NCBI RefSeq assembly: GCF_003600835.1
Contig: NZ_NQYC01000001.1
Coordinates: 496,001-560,000, forward strand
Direction: 5' to 3'
DNA length: 64,000 nucleotides
Source of the DNA: Bacillus sp. PK3_68
GTDB taxonomy: Bacteria; Bacillota; Bacilli; Bacillales; Domibacillaceae
Below, in pieces: positions 2,036 through 13,631 of the stretch. Below the pieces are notes generated by a model. That model did not search any database and had not been told where the DNA came from. It saw only the letters and a list, made by a program, of their open reading frames with translations. The position numbers were made by a program, and so were the translations under genes. Position 1 is the first letter of the stretch. The number at the start of each line of letters is the position of its first letter.

Positions 2036-3487
2036 TTAAATCGTTCGTTTATGTGCGAGTTTAAAACTGACAACCTTTGGTTCTGTCATTTCCTGGATGG
2101 CAAACTTTACTCCTTCCCGTCCGAGACCCGATCCTTTGACTCCTCCAAACGGCATGCCATCAATACGATAATCACTGCTGTCGTTAATCATTAATCCGCC
2201 TACGTTCATCTTCTCAATTGCTTCAAAGGCTTTATCAATATTTTTCGTAAAGATTCCTGCTTGAAGTCCATAGTTCACATGATTGGACTGTTCAATTGCT
2301 GAATGAATATCTGCAACTGGATAAAGCAAAACAACTGGACCGAAAATTTCCTGCTGAGCAATAGTACAGCCGGCTGGCACATCGGTTAAAACCGTCGGCG
2401 AATAAAAAGCCCCTTTACGCTCTCCGCCAACCAATAGCCTTGCTCCTTTAGAAAGCGCCTCGTCTACCCAGCTTTCAACTCTTACAGCTTCTCTCTCATT
2501 AATCATGGGGCCCATATCTGTTGATTCTTTCAGTTTATCCCCTATTCGATAGCGTTTTGTACGCTCAACAAACAATGACTGAAATTCTTCAAACTTCTCC
2601 TTTTCAATATAAATTCGCTGAACGCCAATACAGTTTTGTCCTGCTGCACAGAACGCACCGGAAACCGTAGATTCTACAGCCTGATTGATATCCGCATCTT
2701 TGAGAACAATGACAGGTGAGTTCGAGCCAAGTTCCATACTAAGCTTTTTTAATCCGGCTTTATGAGCAATCGCTTCTCCTGTCTCCAATCCTCCAGTAAA
2801 GGAAACCATTCGGACAGCTGGATGCGTAACTAACGGATCGCCAAGCTCATGGCCGCTGCCAGTAACAACAGAAAGAATTTCACCAGGCAGGCCAGCTGCT
2901 TCAAAAGCTTCAGCGAGCAACAGGGCACTAAGAGGTGTAGCTGTGGCTGGTTTTACGATGATGGCATTTCCAGACGCAATCGCCGGTCCGACTTTATGTG
3001 CGACCAAGTTTAAGGGATCATTAAAAGGAGTGATGGCCGCTACAATGCCAATTGGAAACCGGTAGTAATACCCGACCCGATCTTCACTTCCCTCCGACTG
3101 GTCAAAAGGAATGGTCTCGCCGTTAATTCTTCGTGCTTCTTCTGCACATATTTTCAACGTTTGAATGCATCGCTTTACTTCAGAGCGCGCCTCTCTAATC
3201 GTTTTGCTTCCTTCTGAGGCAATCGTCCTTGCATATTTTTCTTTATGGTCCTCAATATACTGAGCCGCTCGATTCAAAACAGCCATTCTTACATGAACAG
3301 GCATAGCAGCAGCCACTTTCGCCCCGTTTTTTGCCTCTTCTATCGCAAATAACATATCTTCTGCTGTGGCAGCCGGAACACTGCTGATTACTGAATGATC
3401 TTGAGGATTTAACACGTCAATGGTCTTCTCTTTTCCAATCCATTTACCGGCAATAAACATTTTTTGACTGAGCGTTTGTGTCTTCAC
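2036..3487 (-). CDS. doeC: NAD(P)-dependent aldehyde dehydrogenase, DoeC-like
   Basis: A 483-residue member of the aldehyde dehydrogenase superfamily. It has the proton-abstracting Glu in MELGSNSP (residue 252) and the catalytic Cys in GQNCIGVQR (residue 286). ITPFNDPLN near 152-160 is the usual cofactor-side loop. The start is GTG, with GGAAGG about ten bases upstream. It lies 39 bases after the M20 amidohydrolase and is probably in the same transcript. In the ectoine pathway DoeC oxidises aspartate semialdehyde to aspartate, which fits between the deacetylase and transaminase genes. Phosphonoacetaldehyde and sulfolactaldehyde dehydrogenases belong to related branches, so the substrate is inferred from context. 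Confidence 0.72.
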   Translation of the reverse strand: MKTQTLSQKMFIAGKWIGKEKTIDVLNPQDHSVISSVPAATAEDMLFAIEEAKNGAKVAAAMPVHVRMAVLNRAAQYIEDHKEKYARTIASEGSKTIREARSEVKRCIQTLKICAEEARRINGETIPFDQSEGSEDRVGYYYRFPIGIVAAITPFNDPLNLVAHKVGPAIASGNAIIVKPATATPLSALLLAEAFEAAGLPGEILSVVTGSGHELGDPLVTHPAVRMVSFTGGLETGEAIAHKAGLKKLSMELGSNSPVIVLKDADINQAVESTVSGAFCAAGQNCIGVQRIYIEKEKFEEFQSLFVERTKRYRIGDKLKESTDMGPMINEREAVRVESWVDEALSKGARLLVGGERKGAFYSPTVLTDVPAGCTIAQQEIFGPVVLLYPVADIHSAIEQSNHVNYGLQAGIFTKNIDKAFEAIEKMNVGGLMINDSSDYRIDGMPFGGVKGSGLGREGVKFAIQEMTEPKVVSFKLAHKRTI

Positions 3488-3526: not shown

Positions 3527-4732
3527 TTACTCCTGCGGCAGCTTTAATAACTTCAGCGCTGCTTCAGAAAGTATAGCTGCCCCCACCGGCAGACAGCGCT
3601 CATCAATATCAAAGATATTCGTATGCAGATCCCTGTTCACTCCGTCAGACAGTGCACACCCTAAAAAGAACATGGCTCCCGGCACTTCTCTCGTCATATA
3701 GCCAAAGTCTTCTCCTCCGAGACCGAACGGCTTTTGTTCCATTCTTATAGACGGGTATAGTTCCTTTGCTGTTACCTTAATGACCTCGTTAATTTTTGAA
3801 TGGTTATTCAACGCCGGCTCTCCCCGTTCAACAGCAAATGTATAACTTCCTCCCAGTGACTCCACGACTTTAAAAGCTGTTTCTATCTCTTCAGCAAGCT
3901 GATCTCTTACTTCAGGAGAGTAGGATCGCAGCGTTCCGGTAATAGCCACTTCCTGTGGGATAATATTGCTGGCTGCTCCCGTATGGATTTCACCAATGCT
4001 GGCCACCGCGGTATCCAAAGCAGAAATGCGTCTCGCACTGATACTATAGAAGTTTTGCAGAACAGAGCCAAGCATCCAAACAGGATCTGTCCCCAGGTGT
4101 GGATAGCCTCCGTGGCCGCCGGTGCCTTTTATCGTCCCGTGAAAAACATCCACATTAGCCATGCTGTATCCATCGTTCACTTGAATGGTTCCTACGGAGT
4201 GCCACGGACACATATGAAGGGCTAAAACAGCGTCCACTCCTTCTAACACACCCTCCTCCATCATTCGGGGAGCTCCAGAAAGGCCTTCTTCGTCCGTTTT
4301 TTCCTCTGCTGGCTGAAAAATAAATTTGACCGTTCCGTGAAAAGAATCTTGTTCTGCTTTTTGGGATAAAAGCCTGGCAGCACCAAGCAGGATGGCCGTG
4401 TGAGCATCGTGTCCGCAAGCATGCATCACCCCTTGGTGGCGGGACCGGAAAGCATGTGCGGTCTTTTCCTCAATGGGCAATGCATCCATGTCCGCACGAA
4501 TGGCGACTGTTTTGCCAGTGCCCTTTGTAAGAGTAGCTACTACCCCTGTGTTGGCCACATTTGTCTGAACTTGTATCCCCTTAAAGCTGTTTAACGTTTC
4601 AGCGACAAACTGAGCTGTTTTATATTCATTGAAGCTGAGTTCTGGATATTGATGAATGTGCCTGCGCCATTCAACTAGCTGCTGACCCATTTCTTCCGCT
4701 TCCTCGGCAAGACTCTTCATTTGCCTCTTCAT
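3527..4732 (-). CDS. M20D-family amidohydrolase, candidate N-acetyl-diaminobutyrate deacetylase
   Basis: A zinc-dependent amidohydrolase of the M20D (hippurate hydrolase/N-acetyl-diaminopimelate deacetylase) group, 401 residues from the preferred ATG at 4732. That ATG follows GGAAGGG; an upstream ATG at 4750 lacks such a site. Visible motifs are RADMDALP, HACGHDAH near residue 104 with the metal-binding Cys/His cluster, FQPAEE with the general-base Glu pair, and ALHMCPW. It sits between eutC and the aldehyde dehydrogenase. In known ectoine clusters the deacetylase DoeB/EutE belongs to the AstE/AspA family, which I do not see here. This M20 enzyme may therefore fill that step. The substrate is inferred. 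Confidence 0.75.
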   Translation of the reverse strand: MKRQMKSLAEEAEEMGQQLVEWRRHIHQYPELSFNEYKTAQFVAETLNSFKGIQVQTNVANTGVVATLTKGTGKTVAIRADMDALPIEEKTAHAFRSRHQGVMHACGHDAHTAILLGAARLLSQKAEQDSFHGTVKFIFQPAEEKTDEEGLSGAPRMMEEGVLEGVDAVLALHMCPWHSVGTIQVNDGYSMANVDVFHGTIKGTGGHGGYPHLGTDPVWMLGSVLQNFYSISARRISALDTAVASIGEIHTGAASNIIPQEVAITGTLRSYSPEVRDQLAEEIETAFKVVESLGGSYTFAVERGEPALNNHSKINEVIKVTAKELYPSIRMEQKPFGLGGEDFGYMTREVPGAMFFLGCALSDGVNRDLHTNIFDIDERCLPVGAAILSEAALKLLKLPQE

Positions 4733-4756
4733 AGGATCCCTTCCAATCACTTCTTT

Positions 4757-5764
4757 TTATATAAAGCTGATCTCTTTTTTATTTTCTATCTTTAATCCCA
4801 GCTTTCCTGAAGCCATTAATCGTTCGTAAGCATACAGAGCAATCGCAGTATCTTGAACACCCGTGCCAGTTAAATCACAAACGGTAATTTCTCGATTATT
4901 TTGTCTGCCATGTGTGTGTGTTGAAGTGATCGTTCCTAGTTCAATTACACAGTTTTCCACGTCACTCATTCCTCTGCTAACAGCATGATGAAGCTCCCCT
5001 AAGCGGAGGCATTGCGATTTCGCATCACAAACTATTCGATCCGCCCGTTGTAAAACGTCTGCCTCCAGCTCTTGTTTATCTTCTGCATCTGAACCCATTG
5101 CTGTAATATGCAAACCTCTGTTTAACCATTCCGCTTGTACAATTGGTTCTTTTGCGGGCGTTGTCGTTACGACTGCTTCGCTGCCTTTTACCACTTCTTC
5201 AGGTGAAGAACATTCGATCACTTTTACATCCAATATGGCTTCCATTTCTTCTTTGAACTTTTTCATATTTAGTTCTGAACGGCCATATACAAGCAATTTT
5301 TTATAATCCCGCACCATTTTAAGCGCTTTCATTTGGTATTTTGCTTGAGCACCTGTTCCAATAACCCCCGCTGTATGGATTGTTTTTTTCGCCAGATACT
5401 TAGCGGCAACTGCTCCTGCTGCTGCTGTACGTACCTCAGTTAAGTAGCCATTATCAAGCAGTAGCGCTTTCGGTTCGCCTGTTTTTGTACTGATTAGCAC
5501 CATAAATCCATTGGCACTGGGCAGGCCCAATTGATCATTATTGAAAAATCCTGACGACACTTTTAACGCAAATAAATCTTTTTGTGCCACATAAGCCGTT
5601 TTCACATCTACTTCACCGTTGTTCTCTTTAATGTCCACCCGCATGATAGGCGGCATTGTCACTTTGTTCATCGCCAGCTCAGTAAACGCTTCTTCCACTG
5701 CGTGAATAGCTTCATTATTTAATTGCACATGAGACCGAATCTCTTTCTCTGTAAAAATAATCAA
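4757..5764 (-). CDS. eutC: EutC, ornithine-cyclodeaminase-like ectoine utilisation protein
   Basis: An ornithine cyclodeaminase/mu-crystallin family protein of about 335 residues. Stretches such as DVKTAYV, the GFF and GLPSANGFMVL region, LLLDNGYLTEVRTAAAGAVAA and the dinucleotide-binding GVIGTGAQA match what I recall of the EutC branch better than true ornithine cyclodeaminases. The ATT-ATT-encoded start MIIFTEKEIR fits the family and is best served by a TTG at 5764, which has AGGGGTGA properly spaced. The GTG at 5773 lies inside that ribosome binding site. EutC works with EutB in converting 5-hydroxyectoine to ectoine. The gene is 12 bases after doeA. Confidence 0.8.
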   Translation of the reverse strand: MIIFTEKEIRSHVQLNNEAIHAVEEAFTELAMNKVTMPPIMRVDIKENNGEVDVKTAYVAQKDLFALKVSSGFFNNDQLGLPSANGFMVLISTKTGEPKALLLDNGYLTEVRTAAAGAVAAKYLAKKTIHTAGVIGTGAQAKYQMKALKMVRDYKKLLVYGRSELNMKKFKEEMEAILDVKVIECSSPEEVVKGSEAVVTTTPAKEPIVQAEWLNRGLHITAMGSDAEDKQELEADVLQRADRIVCDAKSQCLRLGELHHAVSRGMSDVENCVIELGTITSTHTHGRQNNREITVCDLTGTGVQDTAIALYAYERLMASGKLGLKIENKKEISFI

Positions 5765-5776
5765 TGATTTCACCCC

Positions 5777-6976
5777 TCAAGAGCTTGATACGGAAATATT
5801 CGTTTCTTCTTTTATAATTAACTCACGCGGAAAATTAGCTAATACTTCACAGCCATTTTCTGTTACTCTAAATGATTCACTAATTTCAATGCCGTAATCA
5901 TCAAACCAAAGACCTGGAATCAAGTGGAAAGTCATATTCGGCTTTAATACCGTCATATCTCCTTTGCGAATGCTTGCTGTATGCTCCCCCCAGTCAGGAG
6001 GATAATTTAATCCCATGGAGTAGCCGAGCCTTGATTCCTTAATGATGCCATGCTTTGTAATGACCTGATTCCAAGCTCTTTCTAAATCATCACATGTAGC
6101 TCCTGGTTTCACTTTATCCAAAGCAGCATTTAATCCTTCTACCACAATCTTTGATATATCTTGTGCTCGCTTGGTAGGTTGGCCAATTGAAACAGTGCGA
6201 GCGAGCGGTGAGTGATAGCGCTGATGACAGCCTGCCAGTTCAATAATGACCATTTCGTTATTTTTATATTTCTTATCCGACCAGGTAATATGCGGTGTAG
6301 AAGTGTTCTCCCCAGCCGGCAATAGCGGTACGATAGCTGGATAATCACCGCCGTATTCTTCTGTTCCGCTTATTAAGTCTTTATAAATATTGGCAGCCAC
6401 ATCGCACTCCCTCACCCCTTCTTGAATGGAGGAAACGGCTGTGCTCATGCCGATTTCAACAATTTTAGCCGCTCTTTTCATGTATTCTATTTCTCTTTCA
6501 GATTTAACGAGGCGCACATAGTTAACTAGTAGGCTAGCATCGATAAATTGAGCATTAGGAAGGTTTCTCTTCAATCGCTCGTAGGAAAGAGCTGAGAAAT
6601 AATAAGACTCCATTTCTAATCCAATTCGGCGATTAGACTGGCCGATTTGCGTCAAAATCTGGGCAACAAAGTCCATTGGATGTTTGACGGTTGAGTGAAT
6701 ATGATCTTCTGGATAAGGAATAATGTTTTCATCATACAGCCAGGTTGTGGCTTTCGCTCCATTGGCATCCTGCTTTCTCCCGATCCAAATCGGCTGATCC
6801 TCGTCAATGATAACAACCAGCATTTGATCAACATAGAAGGACCACCCGTTATAACCTGATAAGTAATTCATATTGGCCGGGTTTGTTATTAACAATACCT
6901 CGATGCCTTTTTCTAGCATGCTTTTCTTCGTTTGTTCCAATCGGGATTTAAATTCGTTTAAACTAAATGGCAGCAT
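5777..6976 (-). CDS. doeA: Ectoine hydrolase DoeA/EutD (creatinase-like M24 family)
   Basis: A 399-residue M24 (creatinase/aminopeptidase P) fold protein that opens the ectoine ring to N-acetyl-diaminobutyrate. Diagnostic segments are NPANMNYLSGYNGWSFYVDQ near the N-terminus, GGDYPAIVPLLP, ELAGCHQRYHSPLARTV and YPPDWGEHT. At the positions where metal-dependent M24 peptidases carry Asp ligands this protein has Leu/Ala and Pro, which fits a metal-free, creatinase-like chemistry. The ATG at 6976 has AAAGGAGGATC in front. The longer frame to 7018 would cover a cre-like site and is rejected. It is the first gene of the catabolic transcript, which runs doeA, eutC, M20, doeC, doeD. Confidence 0.87.
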   Translation of the reverse strand: MLPFSLNEFKSRLEQTKKSMLEKGIEVLLITNPANMNYLSGYNGWSFYVDQMLVVIIDEDQPIWIGRKQDANGAKATTWLYDENIIPYPEDHIHSTVKHPMDFVAQILTQIGQSNRRIGLEMESYYFSALSYERLKRNLPNAQFIDASLLVNYVRLVKSEREIEYMKRAAKIVEIGMSTAVSSIQEGVRECDVAANIYKDLISGTEEYGGDYPAIVPLLPAGENTSTPHITWSDKKYKNNEMVIIELAGCHQRYHSPLARTVSIGQPTKRAQDISKIVVEGLNAALDKVKPGATCDDLERAWNQVITKHGIIKESRLGYSMGLNYPPDWGEHTASIRKGDMTVLKPNMTFHLIPGLWFDDYGIEISESFRVTENGCEVLANFPRELIIKEETNISVSSS

Positions 6977-7003
6977 GTTGATCCTCCTTTTACTTCTCCT
7001 TAT

Positions 7004-7017
7004 TAACAACGCTTTCA
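7004..7017 (-). promoter_or_regulatory. cre-like CcpA site in the doeA leader
   Basis: TAACAACGCTTTCA matches the cre consensus TGWNANCGNTNWCA at all constrained positions but one (A instead of G at position 2). It lies between the predicted promoter and the doeA start codon, a roadblock position. A perfect cre occupies the equivalent place before the transporter gene at 13506. Confidence 0.5.
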
Positions 7018-7073
7018 TCCTTGAAAATAAATTCGTTTGATAGTGTTAATTATAAAAATCAAGGTGTAGAAAA

Positions 7074-7099
7074 ACATCCGCCAACATGTATGAATTTTC
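7074..7099 (-). promoter_or_regulatory. 26-bp element upstream of doeA, copy 1 (probable regulator box)
   Basis: The block ACATCCGCCAA, two free bases, then TGTATGAATTTTC recurs at 13606-13631 with 24 of 26 identities. Both copies lie upstream of minus-strand genes and about 24 bases before a -10-like hexamer (TATAAT here at 7050-7055). There is no good -35, as expected of an activator-dependent promoter. The adjacent PucR-family regulator is the obvious candidate to bind it. Confidence 0.65.
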
Positions 7100-7131
7100 A
7101 GTTTTTTAATTCAGACAATTTGCCTTACAAA

Positions 7132-7158
7132 AAAGCTGCCCTCTTATAAGGCAGCTTT
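7132..7158 (-). terminator. Terminator of the eutB-regulator unit
   Basis: AAAGCTGCC (7132-7140) pairs with GGCAGCTTT (7150-7158), followed on the minus strand by a T-rich run. The stem overlaps the stop codon of the PucR-like gene and separates it from the doeA promoter. Confidence 0.75.
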
Positions 7159-8811
7159 CACATTTTGTCGGTCGATCACTCCCGTCGACCATACCTTCAC
7201 GCTAAAATCAAGTAAAAAGAGATCATCAGGGTTCACTAGAGATAAACCAGTTAACGATTCGATCTTCCTTAATCTATACAATAGCGACTGGCGATGAAGA
7301 TTTAAATCTCTCGCCGTCTGACTAACATTGCCACTGTTATTGTTGTAGGCGATAAAAGTATTAATCAGATCCATTTCCCGTTTTTCATCATAGTCAACGA
7401 GCGGGGAAACAGTGGAAACCGTAATCTCCTGCACATCCTCGTCTAAAGCTAAGTTGAGCAGCAAACGGTTGATTCTCGTTTCTTCAAAGTGCACCCGTTT
7501 TCCAATGCCTCTTTGACTTCTTCCCATATCTAGAGCGGCCTTCGCTTTTTGAAAGCTGTTATGAAAGCAGTTCACGCCGTCCCGTTGCTTGCCCATTCCC
7601 CAAGAGAAAATAATTCCCGGCAACATGTGGCTCAATCTTCTTTCCACTAAATCAAGAAATTGATTCACCGTATCAGACGATGTTCCATTAGCTGTTTCAA
7701 GAAAAATAATAAACTCTTGCCCTTCACTTGCAAACATAATGTTTCTTTGGACTGCTTCAGCCGCATAAATCATCTCTTCTTTAATATGGATTTTCATCTT
7801 CTCAAACCAATTGCGGTTTGTATCTGGGGTAAATAATTCGTTTAGGTTTTCTGGCAATCCAACGATGCACTCGTATGGGAGATCGAGGTTAAAAGAGAAC
7901 CGCTCTGTTCGACTCAGCAAATATTCTTCGGTCATTTTCTCTCCTCTTGCCAAGCTGAGAATAAATTCATATTGAGCGTCCGTTTCTGATTCTATTACAG
8001 CGCTATTACGAGAAAACCACAGAGCCAGTGCTACAGTAGCATGTTCAATGATATGCATAGCCATTTGGCTGAAGTAAGAGTCAGCTGTCGATAAAACAAA
8101 TAAATCCCCTTCATGGTTCCCATTCGTTTGTATCACTAAATGAAACAGTTGTTCATTGCCACTTACCAGCTTTCTCATTTTTGCGTGCAACGGATGATGA
8201 AGGTCATACTGGCTTTCTGTTCGGTTTAATTGGTTCCACAAAGAAAATACACGGGCAGGAGTAGCTCTGCCACTAATCGCCTCGCCTTTACGGTTGCAAA
8301 TTAAAATGGGGTAATTCAATTGTTCTTCAATGTAAGTCGCTAAATGATCCAATGGTTTTTCTTCTAATATCATTTGAATGAGATGATGATGAATATCTTT
8401 TGAATGATTCAATTCAGTCTGCTTTAACTGATTCAACTTGCTCATCACTTCGTGAACAATATCAGCAAAGCGGATTTCCCAGGGGATATCGATCAGGATG
8501 AATTGTCTCTGCTCAGCAAACTGGACCACTTCCTCCGGGATATCAAACACATACCTTCCCGTTGCGATGGCTAATGCAGAGGCTCCCGAGTCATACACGT
8601 CTTTTACAAATTCCAGTAATAAATCCACATTTTCATGACATCCAATTCCGGTGCTTAGGACAAATTCATTTTTTCTTACAAAGTTTTCGACTGGACTTTC
8701 AATAACAGATACCCATTCAACCGTTTTATTAGTCAATGTTTCTTTTCCCGTTTTTACTCTTGCTGTTTTTAATAATTGGAGTTGTGTAATTTCTTTAACG
8801 GTCAAAAGCAT
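7144..8811 (-). CDS. PucR-family transcriptional regulator of the ectoine cluster
   Basis: A 555-residue PucR-type regulator. Residues 1-125 form the N-terminal PucR domain (MLLTVKEITQL to the IDIPWEIRFADIV segment). A long middle region follows. The C-terminal 50 residues form the PucR helix-turn-helix (NNNSGNVSQTARDLNLHRQS, then LLYRLRKIESLTG). A GGGAGAG ribosome binding site precedes the ATG. It lies 56 bases after eutB and ends in its own terminator just upstream of the doeA promoter. Proteobacterial ectoine catabolism is controlled by the unrelated MocR-type EnuR, so a PucR protein here would be a different solution. The effector is unknown; an ectoine-derived intermediate is my inference. 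Confidence 0.83.
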   Translation of the reverse strand: MLLTVKEITQLQLLKTARVKTGKETLTNKTVEWVSVIESPVENFVRKNEFVLSTGIGCHENVDLLLEFVKDVYDSGASALAIATGRYVFDIPEEVVQFAEQRQFILIDIPWEIRFADIVHEVMSKLNQLKQTELNHSKDIHHHLIQMILEEKPLDHLATYIEEQLNYPILICNRKGEAISGRATPARVFSLWNQLNRTESQYDLHHPLHAKMRKLVSGNEQLFHLVIQTNGNHEGDLFVLSTADSYFSQMAMHIIEHATVALALWFSRNSAVIESETDAQYEFILSLARGEKMTEEYLLSRTERFSFNLDLPYECIVGLPENLNELFTPDTNRNWFEKMKIHIKEEMIYAAEAVQRNIMFASEGQEFIIFLETANGTSSDTVNQFLDLVERRLSHMLPGIIFSWGMGKQRDGVNCFHNSFQKAKAALDMGRSQRGIGKRVHFEETRINRLLLNLALDEDVQEITVSTVSPLVDYDEKREMDLINTFIAYNNNSGNVSQTARDLNLHRQSLLYRLRKIESLTGLSLVNPDDLFLLDFSVKVWSTGVIDRQNVKAAL

Positions 8812-8867
8812 TACTTATCTCTCCCATCTTCGTTGTTTTGGAGGTTTTATTAGACTGGTTGAAAAGA

Positions 8868-9872
8868 TTATCTTCTTTGCTGCTGGTGTTTTTGAATGAC
8901 TTCTAGAACAACCGGCAAATCGACATTGTTTCCCGTTATAATCGTGCCCACCTTTTTGCCGCTGCATTTTACTTTGCCTTGCAATAGAGCGGCTACACCA
9001 ACAGCAGCTGCCCCTTCAACAATCATTCTGTGATGGTCCATCATAAAAACCATCGCATCAGCAATCTCTTCCTCCGACACGAGCAGAAGATCATCCGCAT
9101 ACCTTCTTGCAATATCAAATGTATATTCGTTGTTTACTCCTATGCCTCCAAGCAAGCTGTCGGCTAGTGTAGGCTGTTCTTTGAGCACCACTGGCCTGCC
9201 AGCCTGAATGCTCTCGTACATAACGGGTGATCTTTCCATAGAAACACCAATCACTTGAACAGAAGGGTTAATAGACTTTAACGCTAAGGCTACACCTGCA
9301 AGCAGGCCTCCTCCCGAAAGCGGAATAATAATGGTGTCTAATTCCGGAAGCGCTTCCATAATTTCAATGCCAATGGTCCCCTGTCCAGCGATCACATCCA
9401 AGTCATCAAATGGCTTAATAACAGTCATTCCATGTTTCTCCTGCAAACTGTAACAGTATTTTTCTGCCTCATCCTGGCTTTCTCCGATAAGTTCAATTTG
9501 AGCGCCGGCACGTCGAATGGCCTCGACTTTGACCTTTGGAACACGATGGGAAATACAGACAACGGCCTTTATTCCAAGCTTCCTAGCGATGAAAGCAACG
9601 GCAAGACCATGGTTGCCAGTCGAGAATGCAGCTACACCTCTTTGTTTTTCATCGGTTGATAAGCCGATGATTTTATTTGCTGCCCCTCGCACTTTGAATG
9701 CCCCGATTTCTTGATAATTTTCTAGTTTCAAATAAACATCTGAATGCAATCTCTCGGATAAAACGGCGGACGGAAGGAAGGGAGTCGGAGAAACAAGCTG
9801 CTTAATGTTTTGCTTTGCCTTCCAAATGTGTTGTACGTAAGAATGGTCTATTTTTTCTTGAATACGATCCAT
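8868..9872 (-). CDS. eutB: EutB, threonine-dehydratase-like hydroxyectoine utilisation enzyme
   Basis: A 334-residue fold-type II PLP enzyme of the threonine dehydratase family. The cofactor Lys lies in EIGAFKVRGAANK (K60), the substrate-binding loop is STGNHG, and the phosphate-binding glycine loop is PLSGGGLLAG near 183-192. The length fits a catabolic dehydratase without an ACT domain. GGGGTGG precedes the ATG. Next to eutC and doeA the best reading is EutB, which takes part in removing the hydroxyl group of 5-hydroxyectoine. The partner racemase EutA is not in the window. Plain threonine/serine dehydratase or serine racemase is the alternative. Confidence 0.78.
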   Translation of the reverse strand: MDRIQEKIDHSYVQHIWKAKQNIKQLVSPTPFLPSAVLSERLHSDVYLKLENYQEIGAFKVRGAANKIIGLSTDEKQRGVAAFSTGNHGLAVAFIARKLGIKAVVCISHRVPKVKVEAIRRAGAQIELIGESQDEAEKYCYSLQEKHGMTVIKPFDDLDVIAGQGTIGIEIMEALPELDTIIIPLSGGGLLAGVALALKSINPSVQVIGVSMERSPVMYESIQAGRPVVLKEQPTLADSLLGGIGVNNEYTFDIARRYADDLLLVSEEEIADAMVFMMDHHRMIVEGAAAVGVAALLQGKVKCSGKKVGTIITGNNVDLPVVLEVIQKHQQQRR

Positions 9873-10081
9873 TATTCCACCCCATTTACTTATTTTGTGT
9901 TACGAGCAGGCAAGCTTGCACCTTTCTCATTTTAAACTAGATTTCTCCAAAATTTAACGAATAAAAAAAGTCAATTTTCGATCAATTCTTACACTAATAG
10001 AAACATATAAGCTCAATAAGTTCAAATTCTATGGTGAAAGTAAAGTGAATCAAAAGCTCGTTATTAATGACAAAGTTTAAC

Positions 10082-10119
10082 AAACAAACACCATCTGAAT
10101 ACCCAGATGGTGTTTGTTT
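10082..10119 (-). terminator. Terminator of the pdaC-like gene
   Basis: AAACAAACACCATCTG (10082-10097) and CAGATGGTGTTTGTTT (10104-10119) form a perfect 16-bp stem with a 6-base loop. It lies just past the stop at 10146 and is T-rich on the minus strand. Confidence 0.8.
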
Positions 10120-10145
10120 AAGGTTCTAGCTAGTAAATAATCAAT

Positions 10146-11567
10146 TTATTTTTTAAAATAAGGTCCCATATCCGAATGATCATTCAACGACAGTAATTGG
10201 GAGACTGTCACAAATTGATAGCCTTGCTGTTCAAGCGCAGTTAATAATGAAGGGAGCGCTTCTGCTGTCGAAAGATGAATATCATGCATTAACACGATGG
10301 CTCCCGGTTTAACGTTCCGCAGGACAACGTCGTTTACCGCCTTAGCATTACGGCTTTTCCAGTCGAGTGAATCAACAGACCATAAGATAATGGGTGTACG
10401 GTTTTTTTTCGCTGCATACATTACTTTATCATTGTAAGCTCCGTATGGCGGACGCAGCAGTGTCGGTTTTTGGCCGACTGCTGCTTCAATCTTGTGGCTC
10501 GCCTCTCCTAACTCCTGCTGGATTTGTGCATCCTTTAAAGTGGAGAGATCTCGGTGATTCTCTGTGTGGCTTCCTATTTCATGCCCCGCCTCCAGCACTT
10601 GCTTTGCTATGGCTGGGTAATACTCTGCCTGACTGCCAAGCATAAAGAAAGTGGCAACCGCATGATGAGCTTTTAATGCCTTTAATACTTGCGGTGTCGA
10701 GGTTGAATTGGGCCCGTCGTCAAATGTAAGGGCTACATATTTCCCATTCGGGTCCAATTTCACTGTTTTCACATTATGCCCAGCAGGCTTTTCTTGTAGC
10801 TGATCCGATATATTCAGTTCTTTGGTAATACCTTCCTTTAAAAACGGCTTAACTTTTTCAATTGGAATGACAGCTTTTAAGGAACCAGCTGCACCGGCTG
10901 CCACTTCATATTTATCAAAGTACAAAGTAAACGCCTTTTTGTTTACTGACCATTCCCACTGATTAGGGTTTTTCAAAGCCTCAGCCAGCAAATCATCCAT
11001 CACATAGTAGGCAATGTCTTCCTGACTATTTAACCGTTTGGTGACTAACGAACGGATTTCATCTAAATTTTCTTTTCCATCCTTTAAAACATCTGTAACG
11101 GTTAAAATCTTTTTATGGGTAATATCTACTGTGAATGTTTTTATTGCCTCTTTTTTGTTTGCCCCATCGATATACTGGTAAGAAGAAAAAACGAGGCTAT
11201 ATATATGATCGTTCACTTTAGTCGTATCTACTTTAATGGTTAAATTAGCACGCTTTTGCTTTCCGAATAGTTTTTTATGAGCCTTTACTCCATCAAGAAA
11301 TTGAGTTTTTTGCTCGTCGATCCACTGCTGAATAGCGTGATTGAGCTGCTCATCATCAGAAACAGGCAAGCTGATCGCCAATGTATAATTCTTTGTTTCA
11401 CTTGTTCGTGTTTCCAAATGCAATCCCGGATAATTGCTTAGTTTTTTTGTTTCCACTTTCTCATTTTGTGCGTATGTAACAGTTTCCAATATGCGGTTAA
11501 ATCCTACTAGGACAAAAAGAAAGAGCAAGGCAAGAACGACCCAAGCAGGCCAGCGTAATCTTTTCAT
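10146..11567 (-). CDS. pdaC: PdaC-like membrane-anchored peptidoglycan N-acetyl deacetylase
   Basis: A 473-residue extracytoplasmic enzyme. An N-terminal membrane anchor (WVVLALLFLFVLVGF) is followed by a DUF3298/DUF4163-type region to about residue 250, then a NodB polysaccharide deacetylase domain. The NodB motifs are all present: TFDDGP with the base Asp, SHTENH with the metal His pair, RPPYGAYN, the Trp/Asp motif in LWSVDSLDW, and LMHDIH with the catalytic His. The same architecture is known for B. subtilis PdaC (YjeA), which deacetylates N-acetylmuramic acid in the cell wall. It is a single-gene unit with its own terminator. The exact sugar acted on is inferred from the architecture. Confidence 0.85.
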   Translation of the reverse strand: MKRLRWPAWVVLALLFLFVLVGFNRILETVTYAQNEKVETKKLSNYPGLHLETRTSETKNYTLAISLPVSDDEQLNHAIQQWIDEQKTQFLDGVKAHKKLFGKQKRANLTIKVDTTKVNDHIYSLVFSSYQYIDGANKKEAIKTFTVDITHKKILTVTDVLKDGKENLDEIRSLVTKRLNSQEDIAYYVMDDLLAEALKNPNQWEWSVNKKAFTLYFDKYEVAAGAAGSLKAVIPIEKVKPFLKEGITKELNISDQLQEKPAGHNVKTVKLDPNGKYVALTFDDGPNSTSTPQVLKALKAHHAVATFFMLGSQAEYYPAIAKQVLEAGHEIGSHTENHRDLSTLKDAQIQQELGEASHKIEAAVGQKPTLLRPPYGAYNDKVMYAAKKNRTPIILWSVDSLDWKSRNAKAVNDVVLRNVKPGAIVLMHDIHLSTAEALPSLLTALEQQGYQFVTVSQLLSLNDHSDMGPYFKK

Positions 11568-12012
11568 TGTTTCTAAATCCCCTTAATGATGGCTAGATAA
11601 TATGAATCTATCTACACCGTATTAATTTCACTCGGCTTTTCTATTATTTAGCAAAATAACCAATGTCAATGTCTCGTATTTTATGCTATTTTTTGCTAAA
11701 GGTCAATGAAACATTGAAATAAATGTAATAATTTGTTCGTAGTTTATGAATTAAGAAGATTTTGTCAAAAAGTGAAAAGAGAGCATTTTAACGCACTCTT
11801 CGCAGCCGCTATGTTCTGTGCCAAGTTTCCATATCACCATATAGGATAAATTCTAATGATCTCTGACGTCTCGCTCACTCTTGTTCCCATAGAAAAAACA
11901 CCTTCTAGTTAGTTTCAGGCATTCCCTACCTGCGTTTCAACTTAAAGGTGTTTTTTATCGTCTCACTCTATCAGACGGTCTTAAGGTACAATACGATCTT
12001 TTATATGTTTAT
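11568..12012. other. Gene-free stretch upstream of pdaC-like gene
   Basis: I find no supported gene here. It contains the pdaC-like gene's upstream region, A/T-rich sequence, and the hairpin that ends the transporter gene. Confidence 0.6.
11893..11956 (-). terminator. Terminator of the MFS transporter gene
   Basis: AAAAAACACCTT (11893-11904) pairs with AAGGTGTTTTTT (11945-11956) around a long partly structured loop. It gives a T-run on both strands. Confidence 0.65.
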
Positions 12013-13506
12013 TTAATTGATATATTTTGTTTTTTGGCTCTTAATTGCCTGTGTCTTATGTTCTATATCTGCATCCAATTCTTCTTTCCACCACAAGGCC
12101 TCCTTCGGCTTCTTTAAAATTTCATCAATTTCACTTGGATCTTCGACAGCTGGTAATGATCCTCTCAATGATTTACCAGCGGTTTCTTTAACGAAACATG
12201 CAAATATAACAAGGCCGATCGTACAAGCAATCATTAAATAATAAGCTGGAATCATAATATTTCCCGTGATCCCTACTAACCAAGCGATAACAAGGGGGGT
12301 TGTTCCTCCGAACAAAGAGGTTGAAATGTTGTAGGTGATGGCAAGCGACCCGTATCTCACCTTTGTAAAAAATAATGAAGGTAAGGTTGCAGGCAATGTT
12401 CCTTGAAAAGATGCAAGTAAAGCTCCTAAAATAAGCAGTCCCAGAAAAGCAGTTATATCGTTATCTGAACTTATCATTTTAAATGCAGGAATACTTAATA
12501 AAATAACACCTAATAGAGCCCCTTTTACTATGCGATTACGACCTATACGATCGCTCAGATAACCCATTGTCAAAATGATTGGGATGATGCAAATCATAAT
12601 AAGAAGAACTAAAAGCAATCCCTTCGTTTCACCGTAACCGAGCTCACTAGATAAATAAGATGGCATATAAGTAAGTACCATGTAATCCATCGTATTATAA
12701 AAGAGCACGATGCCCATACAAACCAAAAGGGGTTTCCAATGGTTAATGAGTATTTCCTTAAGCGAAGCTCGTTGTTTTTCCTCTACTTCCGCTTCAGCCA
12801 TCGCCTTAAAAGCTGGCGTTTCCTCTAGATGAGAACGAAAATAGAATCCAATAATTCCTAGTGGACCAGCAATTAAAAACGGCAAGCGCCAGCCCCATTC
12901 AATCATTTTATCCGGACCAAGTAGAAAAGTTAAAAAGGTAACCAAGCCTGCCCCAGCAGAAAAACCAACAAGGGTTCCTACTTCTAGCCCACTTGCAAGA
13001 AAACCACGTTTTTTATCTGGTGTTGATTCAGCAATAAATGTCATTGCCCCGGCATACTCTCCCCCAGTAGAAAACCCCTGAATTAATCTAGCTATAAGCA
13101 ACAAAATAGGCGCAGCTATTCCAATCGTTGCATAGCTCGGAATCAAACCAATACTTAGCGTGGATGCGGCCATCAAGATTAAGGTGAGAGACAAAACCTT
13201 CTTTCGTCCAACCCGATCCCCCATAATTCCAAAGATCATCCCCCCAATGGGTCGGGCAATAAAGGCGATAGCAAATGTGGCAAAAGCATAAATCAATTGA
13301 AAGGATGGATCAATTTGTGGGAAAAAGACTTGACCAATTGTTACAGCTAAATAAGAATAAAGCCCAAAATCAAACCATTCCATTGCATTGCCAAGTGAAG
13401 TGGCGACAACTGATTGTTTAGCAATTTTTGTATCTACAACATTGATGTCCTCTTTCCTTAAATCAATAGTTGGCCTACCTGCAGGATCTTTTGGTCCACG
13501 ATACAT
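12013..13506 (-). CDS. MHS-family MFS transporter, ProP-like (candidate ectoine/compatible-solute importer)
   Basis: A 497-residue major facilitator of the metabolite:H+ symporter (MHS) subfamily. It shows GNAMEWFDFGLYSYLA in TM1, the loop motif GDRVGRKKVL after TM2, and RLIQGFSTGGEYAGA in TM4-5, all typical of ProP. About twelve hydrophobic segments are visible. A hydrophilic tail (IDEILKKPKEALWWKEELDADIEHK) extends beyond the last helix, as in ProP, though shorter. AAAGGAGGAG precedes the ATG. The gene lies apart from the ectoine cluster, but its promoter carries the same 26-bp element and a cre site. Import of ectoine or hydroxyectoine is therefore the favoured role; proline or betaine are alternatives. 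Confidence 0.8.
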   Translation of the reverse strand: MYRGPKDPAGRPTIDLRKEDINVVDTKIAKQSVVATSLGNAMEWFDFGLYSYLAVTIGQVFFPQIDPSFQLIYAFATFAIAFIARPIGGMIFGIMGDRVGRKKVLSLTLILMAASTLSIGLIPSYATIGIAAPILLLIARLIQGFSTGGEYAGAMTFIAESTPDKKRGFLASGLEVGTLVGFSAGAGLVTFLTFLLGPDKMIEWGWRLPFLIAGPLGIIGFYFRSHLEETPAFKAMAEAEVEEKQRASLKEILINHWKPLLVCMGIVLFYNTMDYMVLTYMPSYLSSELGYGETKGLLLVLLIMICIIPIILTMGYLSDRIGRNRIVKGALLGVILLSIPAFKMISSDNDITAFLGLLILGALLASFQGTLPATLPSLFFTKVRYGSLAITYNISTSLFGGTTPLVIAWLVGITGNIMIPAYYLMIACTIGLVIFACFVKETAGKSLRGSLPAVEDPSEIDEILKKPKEALWWKEELDADIEHKTQAIKSQKTKYIN

Positions 13507-13535
13507 AATTCTCCTCCTTTATTAAGCATTGAGAT

Positions 13536-13549
13536 TGATAACGCTTTCA
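13536..13549 (-). promoter_or_regulatory. cre site (CcpA) in the transporter leader
   Basis: TGATAACGCTTTCA matches the cre consensus TGWNANCGNTNWCA at every constrained position. It lies 30 bases upstream of the transporter start codon and downstream of the predicted promoter, so repression by roadblock in preferred sugars is expected. Confidence 0.8.
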
Positions 13550-13605
13550 ATTGTTGTTAACCAGCTTATTTATATTACTCAGTTTAAATAAAGCTTTCCA
13601 AAAAC

Positions 13606-13631
13606 ACATCCGCCAATTTGTATGAATTTTC
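13606..13631 (-). promoter_or_regulatory. 26-bp element upstream of the transporter, copy 2
   Basis: ACATCCGCCAA, two free bases, TGTATGAATTTTC: 24 of 26 bases match copy 1 at 7074-7099. A weak -10-like TAAACT lies at the same 24-base distance from the TTGGCG block as the TATAAT of copy 1. The shared geometry argues for a shared activator. Confidence 0.65.

Follow-up and report, generated by a model that had tools for sequence, protein, structure and literature searches.

A conserved element at ectoine-catabolism promoters of Bacillus sp. PK3_68 and its relatives as the probable operator of a PucR-type activator

In a 64,000-nucleotide (nt) stretch of the 4.83-Mb genome of Bacillus sp. PK3_68, hereafter called the window, a 26-bp element stands upstream of a doeA-like gene and again upstream of a ProP-like transporter gene. 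From sequence comparison, we propose that this element is very probably the class-II operator of the adjacent PucR-type activator of ectoine and hydroxyectoine catabolism and uptake. The proposal draws on the conservation of the element, its fixed geometry, the lack of a consensus –35 box, its co-occurrence with the regulator gene and its presence at two sites in the genome. Ectoine commonly serves as an osmoprotectant and as a nutrient, and within the literature searched, the control of its breakdown in Bacillota is undescribed.

The two copies lie in non-coding DNA at positions 7074–7099 (doeA promoter; GAAAATTCATACATGTTGGCGGATGT on the gene strand, which is the minus strand) and 13606–13631 (transporter promoter; GAAAATTCATACAAATTGGCGGATGT, likewise on the minus strand), and 24 of their 26 bases are identical, as an earlier note on this DNA had reported. 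The 20-bp core of the doeA copy, which is conserved in relatives, is TTCATACATGTTGGCGGATG at 7075–7094, and that of the transporter copy is TTCATACAAATTGGCGGATG at 13607–13626. Allowing up to three mismatches, the 26-bp pattern matched twice in the window, compared with 0.00 matches expected from 100 dinucleotide-preserving shuffles, in agreement with the note's judgment that chance identity is very unlikely. The same search of the whole genome returned just these two copies (reversed-pattern control, 0), and the many unrelated copies that, according to the note, would have spoken against a dedicated regulon were not found. With a degenerate form of the 20-bp core, the two window places stood alone in the genome at up to one mismatch, eight more appeared at two mismatches, and the 102 places at up to three mismatches (71 with the reversed control) were mostly background. 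A position weight matrix (PWM), trained on 23 sites from the first loci collected (L003, L036–L063, L072 and the window; loci from L136 onward were fetched later), found nothing above 11.0 besides the two elements within the window's first 16 kb, and we therefore place no element before eutB-pucR. The doeA copy sits between doeA and a stem-loop with a T run at the end of pucR (7130–7158, minus strand, read by eye), 31 bp from the element.

On the minus strand, TTGGCG is followed after 24 nt by TATAAT at the doeA promoter (7054–7049) and by TAAACT at the transporter promoter (13586–13581), so that the –10-like hexamers noted earlier are present at both; in each case, 40 nt separate the start of the hexamer from the first T of TTCATACA. 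This distance is nearly fixed among relatives: of 85 aligned sites, 83 have a TATAAT-like hexamer whose start lies at 40 or 41 nt from that T, compared with 0 to 20 of the 85 sites at control offset pairs that share no offset with 40/41. An extended –10 was found in none of the 85 sites. At a spacing of 16–18 bp, the closest hexamer agreed with TTGACA in 2–4 of six letters in 84 sites and in five of six in the remaining one. TTGGCG, proposed earlier as the core of the element, is present in both window copies but is variable among relatives, where TTGGC is replaced by TTTGC, TTGTTG, TTTTTACATT and others; the deeply conserved gene-strand core is TTCATACAnnTT.

The relatives were drawn from 397 genomes of the order, of which 108 gave a match to the regulator at E ≤ 1e-80 and 119 a match to DoeA at E ≤ 1e-130. 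Stretches of 7.7–20 kb were taken around the regulator matches, together with the doeA loci of regulator-less genomes and a locus of Lysinibacillus composti (L003); one locus of Oceanobacillus luteolus (L004), with the same gene map as L036, was counted once with it. Among the 128 loci mapped, the window and L003 included, doeA and pucR run in the same direction in 72 and in opposite directions in 33; seven contain pucR but no doeA within the stretch, 13 contain doeA but no pucR, and three contain neither (G346, G383 and G402). A seedless expectation–maximization run on the upstream regions of doeA in the 72 co-directional loci returned CATACA.TTTg.acATTat, with a log-likelihood of 621 versus 85 and 89 for shuffled sequences. 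Applied to the 13 pucR-less doeA regions, the same search gave a weaker, unrelated motif (92.6 versus 63 and 54). A run on the divergent regions, which extended into the next gene, returned coding-like sequence and was left unused.

The strict arm TTYWTRCAnnTT was found within 220 bp upstream of doeA at 66 of the 72 loci with PucR and at 1 of the 13 without it (reversed sequences, 0/72 and 0/13); it also occurs on the opposite strand at 20 of the 72. Combined with the –10, the strict arm was present at 67 of 72 co-directional loci, 22 of 33 opposite-direction loci and 1 of 13 loci without pucR. Under a relaxed rule, which required the arm TTYWTRCA and a –10-like hexamer 40–41 nt from its first T in the doeA or divergent pucR promoter, this composite site was found at 101 of the 105 loci with both pucR and doeA, compared with 2 in reversed sequences and a mean of 1.0 in shuffled ones (largest value, 4 in 20 shuffles), and at 1 of the 13 doeA loci that have no pucR nearby. 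The lone positive among the 13 (L205) comes from a genome, G227, whose PucR gene is on another contig, and the four misses are L072, L146, L179 and L199, with the site of L072 lying farther off, before another gene. Among the 33 loci with oppositely oriented genes, 26 have the element in the divergent promoter of pucR and four more have it at doeA. It also follows doeA over a distance: in four of four f7 genomes fetched (L233–L236), where doeA is approximately 9–12 kb from pucR, the arm and –10 are kept at doeA. In all, 23 family codes and L. composti are represented among the doe loci with a composite site. As an observation on the loci without a PucR neighbor, L206–L217 contain doeA, in several cases with doeC and in some with doeB, and have no composite element (that of L206 is degenerate).

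We also scanned the 397 genomes with the pattern AANTTYATACANNTTNGCRRATG. At up to one mismatch, it occurred at 45 places in 41 genomes (reversed control, 19 places); sorted by hand, 24 of these places fall at the promoters of doeA, of divergent pucR or, for the window, of the ProP-like gene, and the 21 elsewhere approximate the control number. Ten of the 12 exact matches are at these promoters, and the other two represent one inherited chance match. None of the eight off-locus places read, out of the 21, had a –10 at the fixed distance. Three more of the 21, the matches in G346 and G383 (zero mismatches) and G402 (one mismatch), all of one genus, were rejected as operators: they overlap the start codon of a 433-amino-acid open reading frame, which from its sequence looks like an MscS-type channel, and lie downstream of that frame's own –10-like sequence. 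We take them to be a single inherited chance match.

Several observations weigh against the proposal that the element is the operator of a PucR-type activator. The 8-bp arm rule and the joint treatment of doeA and pucR promoters were adopted after the strict counts of 67/72 and 22/33 had been obtained, with the controls recomputed under the new rule. Because pucR and doeA are mostly neighbors, co-occurrence cannot fully separate PucR from a co-inherited regulator. One genome, G043 (L206/L232), has no PucR match at E ≤ 1e-80 and yet carries a degenerate site before doeA (PWM score, 16.4; –10 score, 9.5), which fails the arm rule. TTGACA-like matches of at least four of six letters are more common at the –35 spacing (32/85) than at a control spacing of 8–10 bp (14/85). 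At the ProP-like genes, PWM scores are 15.7 in L003 and 18.7 in L036, compared with 31.8 and 30.3 at the respective doeA sites, and only 1 of 20 ehuB genes in PucR-containing genomes has a composite site. Finally, the enzyme labels depend partly on family scores below cut-off.

The linkage of the two genes and the G043 site would also fit a different DNA-binding protein, global or unlinked, that binds the element with PucR as a mere neighbor. We consider this unlikely: of the 13 doeA loci with no PucR gene nearby, 12 have no composite site and the thirteenth has its PucR gene on another contig, and a global regulator is not expected because the genome holds two sites only. Moreover, the locus of a second PucR paralogue in G063 has three similar sites (TTCTTACA), each followed at the same spacing by a –10, which suggests a paralogous regulon with a related operator. 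On the comparative evidence, the adjacent PucR-family protein encoded at 7144, named in the earlier note, remains the probable binder.

With numbering taken from the –10 hexamer, which starts at a fixed distance of 40–41 nt, the element would span roughly –52 to –33, the usual place of a –35 box. By analogy with other activators and with the PucR-type proteins of PMC7652997 (available text), the protein would bind between about –57 and –32. Once bound in response to the substrate or an intermediate, the activator would bring in sigma-A RNA polymerase, as in class II activation, and in this species it would drive doeA-eutC-doeB-doeC-doeD, presumably as one operon transcript, together with the ProP-like transporter gene. 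An improbable variant is that PucR binds the element but mainly represses, with relief by ectoine products, as for EnuR in proteobacteria. A protein on the –35 region could block polymerase, and the excess of weak TTGACA-like matches there agrees with such a role; the promoters may thus have a weak –35-like character that overlaps the element, and the earlier statement that there is no good –35 largely holds, but matches of at least four letters exceed those at the control spacing. However, none of the 85 sites has a consensus –35, and the promoter should therefore need an activator. The fixed 40/41-nt spacing to the –10 likewise argues against repression, and the PucR-type proteins covered in the available text of PMC7652997 are activators, with B. 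subtilis PucR acting both ways.

That the element is not an operator but a promoter part read by an alternative sigma factor is very improbable. The fixed distance to the –10 and the resemblance of TTGGC to the first part of the sigma-54 –24 box point in this direction, but TTGGC varies as described above, the –10 hexamers of relatives are sigma-A-like, and the presence of the element tracks the PucR gene.

Both window promoters also carry cre-like (CcpA) sites on the minus strand. Compared with the cre consensus TGWNANCGNTNWCA, the site 3' of the doeA promoter (7004–7017) has one mismatch and that of the transporter promoter (13536–13549) has none, and both lie near +25 of start points inferred from the –10. 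The window contains seven cre-like sites versus 5.9 expected, a weak signal alone. The gap between the element and the cre-like site is exactly 56 nt in both promoters, and 22 of the 56 gap positions are identical; as shuffles averaged 17.5 and 230 of 2000 reached 22, the two gaps are not clearly more alike than by chance. Among 71 doeA promoters, two have a cre-like site, that of the window included (reversed control, 0), and a conserved shared role for the site was rejected as not general. The two sites suggest CcpA repression at both window promoters in this lineage only, where, just downstream of the start points, they may add carbon catabolite repression. The equal distance would fit a recent promoter duplication, but this or chance is a scarcely credible origin of the window copies, because the element is conserved across doe loci of many families and the intervening DNA shows no clear likeness.

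Over the 85 sites, the proximal arm is of two types: RGATG-like in 47 (type I) and ACATTA-like in 35 (type II), with three unassigned, one of which was later placed in the second type. The imperfect dyad described for the window copies, CATnC...GnATG, is seen in both at a fixed position relative to the –10, but in relatives it is evident in one of the two types and not in type II. Both arm types occur within families f2, f3, f6 and f14, each with its own PucR lineage, and on a PucR tree built without the helix-turn-helix (HTH), a quick tree with long-branch warnings, the arm type changes three times. The HTH residues H506-R507-Q508-S509 are invariant in the proteins of both types (47/47 and 35/35), and at residue 516, all 47 type I proteins have K, and 27 of the 35 of type II have N. 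For the count of changes on the tree, L042 and L141, where the strict scan misplaced the arm, were excluded; both were kept among the 85 sites. The tree shows two K/N changes at residue 516 and two independent pairs, which are too few for statistics; the residue was therefore dropped as a case of statistically independent covariation, and its link to the arm type is suggestive only. It is possible, without being probable, that these features form an operator code shared across the order by ectoine-responsive PucR activators. In such a code, an invariant recognition helix would read an invariant distal arm TTCATACAnnTT, the two types of proximal arm would have co-evolved with the regulator, residue 516 would be a candidate for switching specificity, and a ruler of 40–41 nt would fix the distance to the –10.

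In the window, sites occur at the doeA and ProP-like transporter promoters only, and the earlier suggestion of a small regulon that links this transporter to the catabolic operon is supported comparatively, but the transporter link is found in few genomes. ProP-like genes beside pucR in L003 and L036, from two other genera, have the left arm and a –10-like hexamer at offset 40. In G186, a site with a perfect TATAAT lies upstream of ehuB, whose score exceeds the curated cut-off. In G063, a similar site is found before an ehuB-like gene that is divided between two frames and followed by ehuC and ehuD, with the second PucR gene adjoining. Upstream regions were tested for all 40 ehuB matches, and none of the 20 in genomes without PucR had a composite site. 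A general ectoine-transporter regulon was therefore rejected, and with 1 of 20 ehuB genes bearing the site, the transporter link is lineage-specific. The region of G186 C1 (L062, L221, L230) contains more than one doeA-like gene (several in all) together with ehuB, ehuC and two PucR genes, and in L059 (12200–19815; G063:C60) the second PucR paralogue, 33% identical, lies with creatinase-like and FAD oxidase-like genes and ehuC/ehuD.

The system resembles several others in part. B. subtilis PutR/PrcR is a PucR-type activator, and its catabolic operon, for proline use, includes a transporter (PMC13198045, available text); its operator is a 17-bp inverted repeat (PMC7652997, available text), and its substrate differs from ectoine. 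AdeR, the PucR-type regulator for alanine, is also an activator with a site upstream of its target promoter in Paenibacillus sabinae; it uses a 24-bp inverted repeat in B. subtilis (PMC7652997) and the consensus CTCATT, not TTCATACA, in P. sabinae (PMC9894248), according to the parts of these sources at hand. B. subtilis PucR, for purine catabolism, belongs to the same domain family, and its box is described as not palindromic in the available text of PMC7652997. Corynebacterium glutamicum GabR, also PucR-type, has no GGDEF-like domain and uses two sites, unlike the window regulator, which has a GGDEF_2 domain and one site seen in each window promoter. An inverted repeat upstream of or overlapping the –35, as for PutR, AdeR and GabR but not B. 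subtilis PucR, is present in the window copies. The box consensus of B. subtilis PucR contains TTGG. In proteobacteria, the same pathway of ectoine catabolism is controlled by EnuR/AsnC (PMC5924519, available text), and EnuR is a MocR/GabR-type repressor, unlike the PucR-type regulator here. For Bacillota, PMC13188858 (available text) reports a PucR-family gene in place of an EnuR homologue, of which it found none. A 2026 paper noted the linkage of pucR to ectoine genes and, in the main text as available, describes no binding site and does not contain 'binding site', 'motif' or 'operator'. The literature searched, which covered few subscription journals, held no earlier description of an ectoine-catabolism operator or of TTCATACA with PucR. 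With a candidate operator of fixed geometry defined, ectoine control in Bacillota can be tested directly using a single protein and a single 26-bp oligonucleotide; the arm and spacing also supply a genome-scan rule for ectoine loci, and the little-studied PucR family gains a multi-species operator alignment.

On the minus strand, the order of the genes around the element is transporter, a polysaccharide deacetylase-like gene, eutB, pucR, element, doeA, eutC, doeB, doeC and doeD. The regulator (7144–8811, minus strand, as are all genes given here) has an N-terminal PucR domain (PF07905, 113.8 bits; cut-off, 33.5), a GGDEF-like domain (GGDEF_2, PF17853, 48.2 bits; cut-off, 24.5), which is present in most but not all studied members, and a C-terminal HTH_30 domain (PF13556, 62.2 bits; cut-off, 27). 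A search of solved structures with the regulator gave two weak matches (E 0.0066 and 0.0081). Fifty-six bp upstream of pucR lies eutB, for hydroxyectoine dehydratase (8868–9872; NF005680, 425.2 bits, above the cut-off of 413). The doeA-like gene (5777–7018), for an ectoine hydrolase-like protein of the M24 family, has as its best NCBIfam match the doeA/eutD equivalog TIGR02993, at 503.9 bits against a cut-off of 613; its likely true start is the ATG at 6976 (MLPFSLNEF), with AGGAGG ahead of it. It is followed by a eutC-like cyclodeaminase gene (4757–5773; above the cut-off for NF006141, below that for TIGR02992) and, from family searches, by genes for a doeB-like M20 deacetylase/amidohydrolase (3527–4750), a doeC-like aldehyde dehydrogenase (2036–3487) and a doeD-like class III aminotransferase (555–1895). 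The ProP-like transporter of the major facilitator superfamily (12013–13506) scores 538.7 bits with NF007927, close to but below the cut-off of 544. Because of such scores, we use the names DoeA-like and ProP-like; the DoeB2 family score is also below its cut-off, and the pathway name therefore rests on the gene set.

Among the 15 members of the window's family that were searched besides its own genome, only G023 has a PucR match, and the PucR proteins nearest to that of the window are from L. composti and the O. luteolus contig. These results suggest that the locus was gained by horizontal transfer. G023 shows two further features: at L037 (11214–11272; G023:C69), a second, inverted and weaker copy of the element (PWM score, 17.9) stands back to back with the doeA site, 7 bp upstream of it, and the genome contains another doe cluster (L052), which has a PucR of its own.

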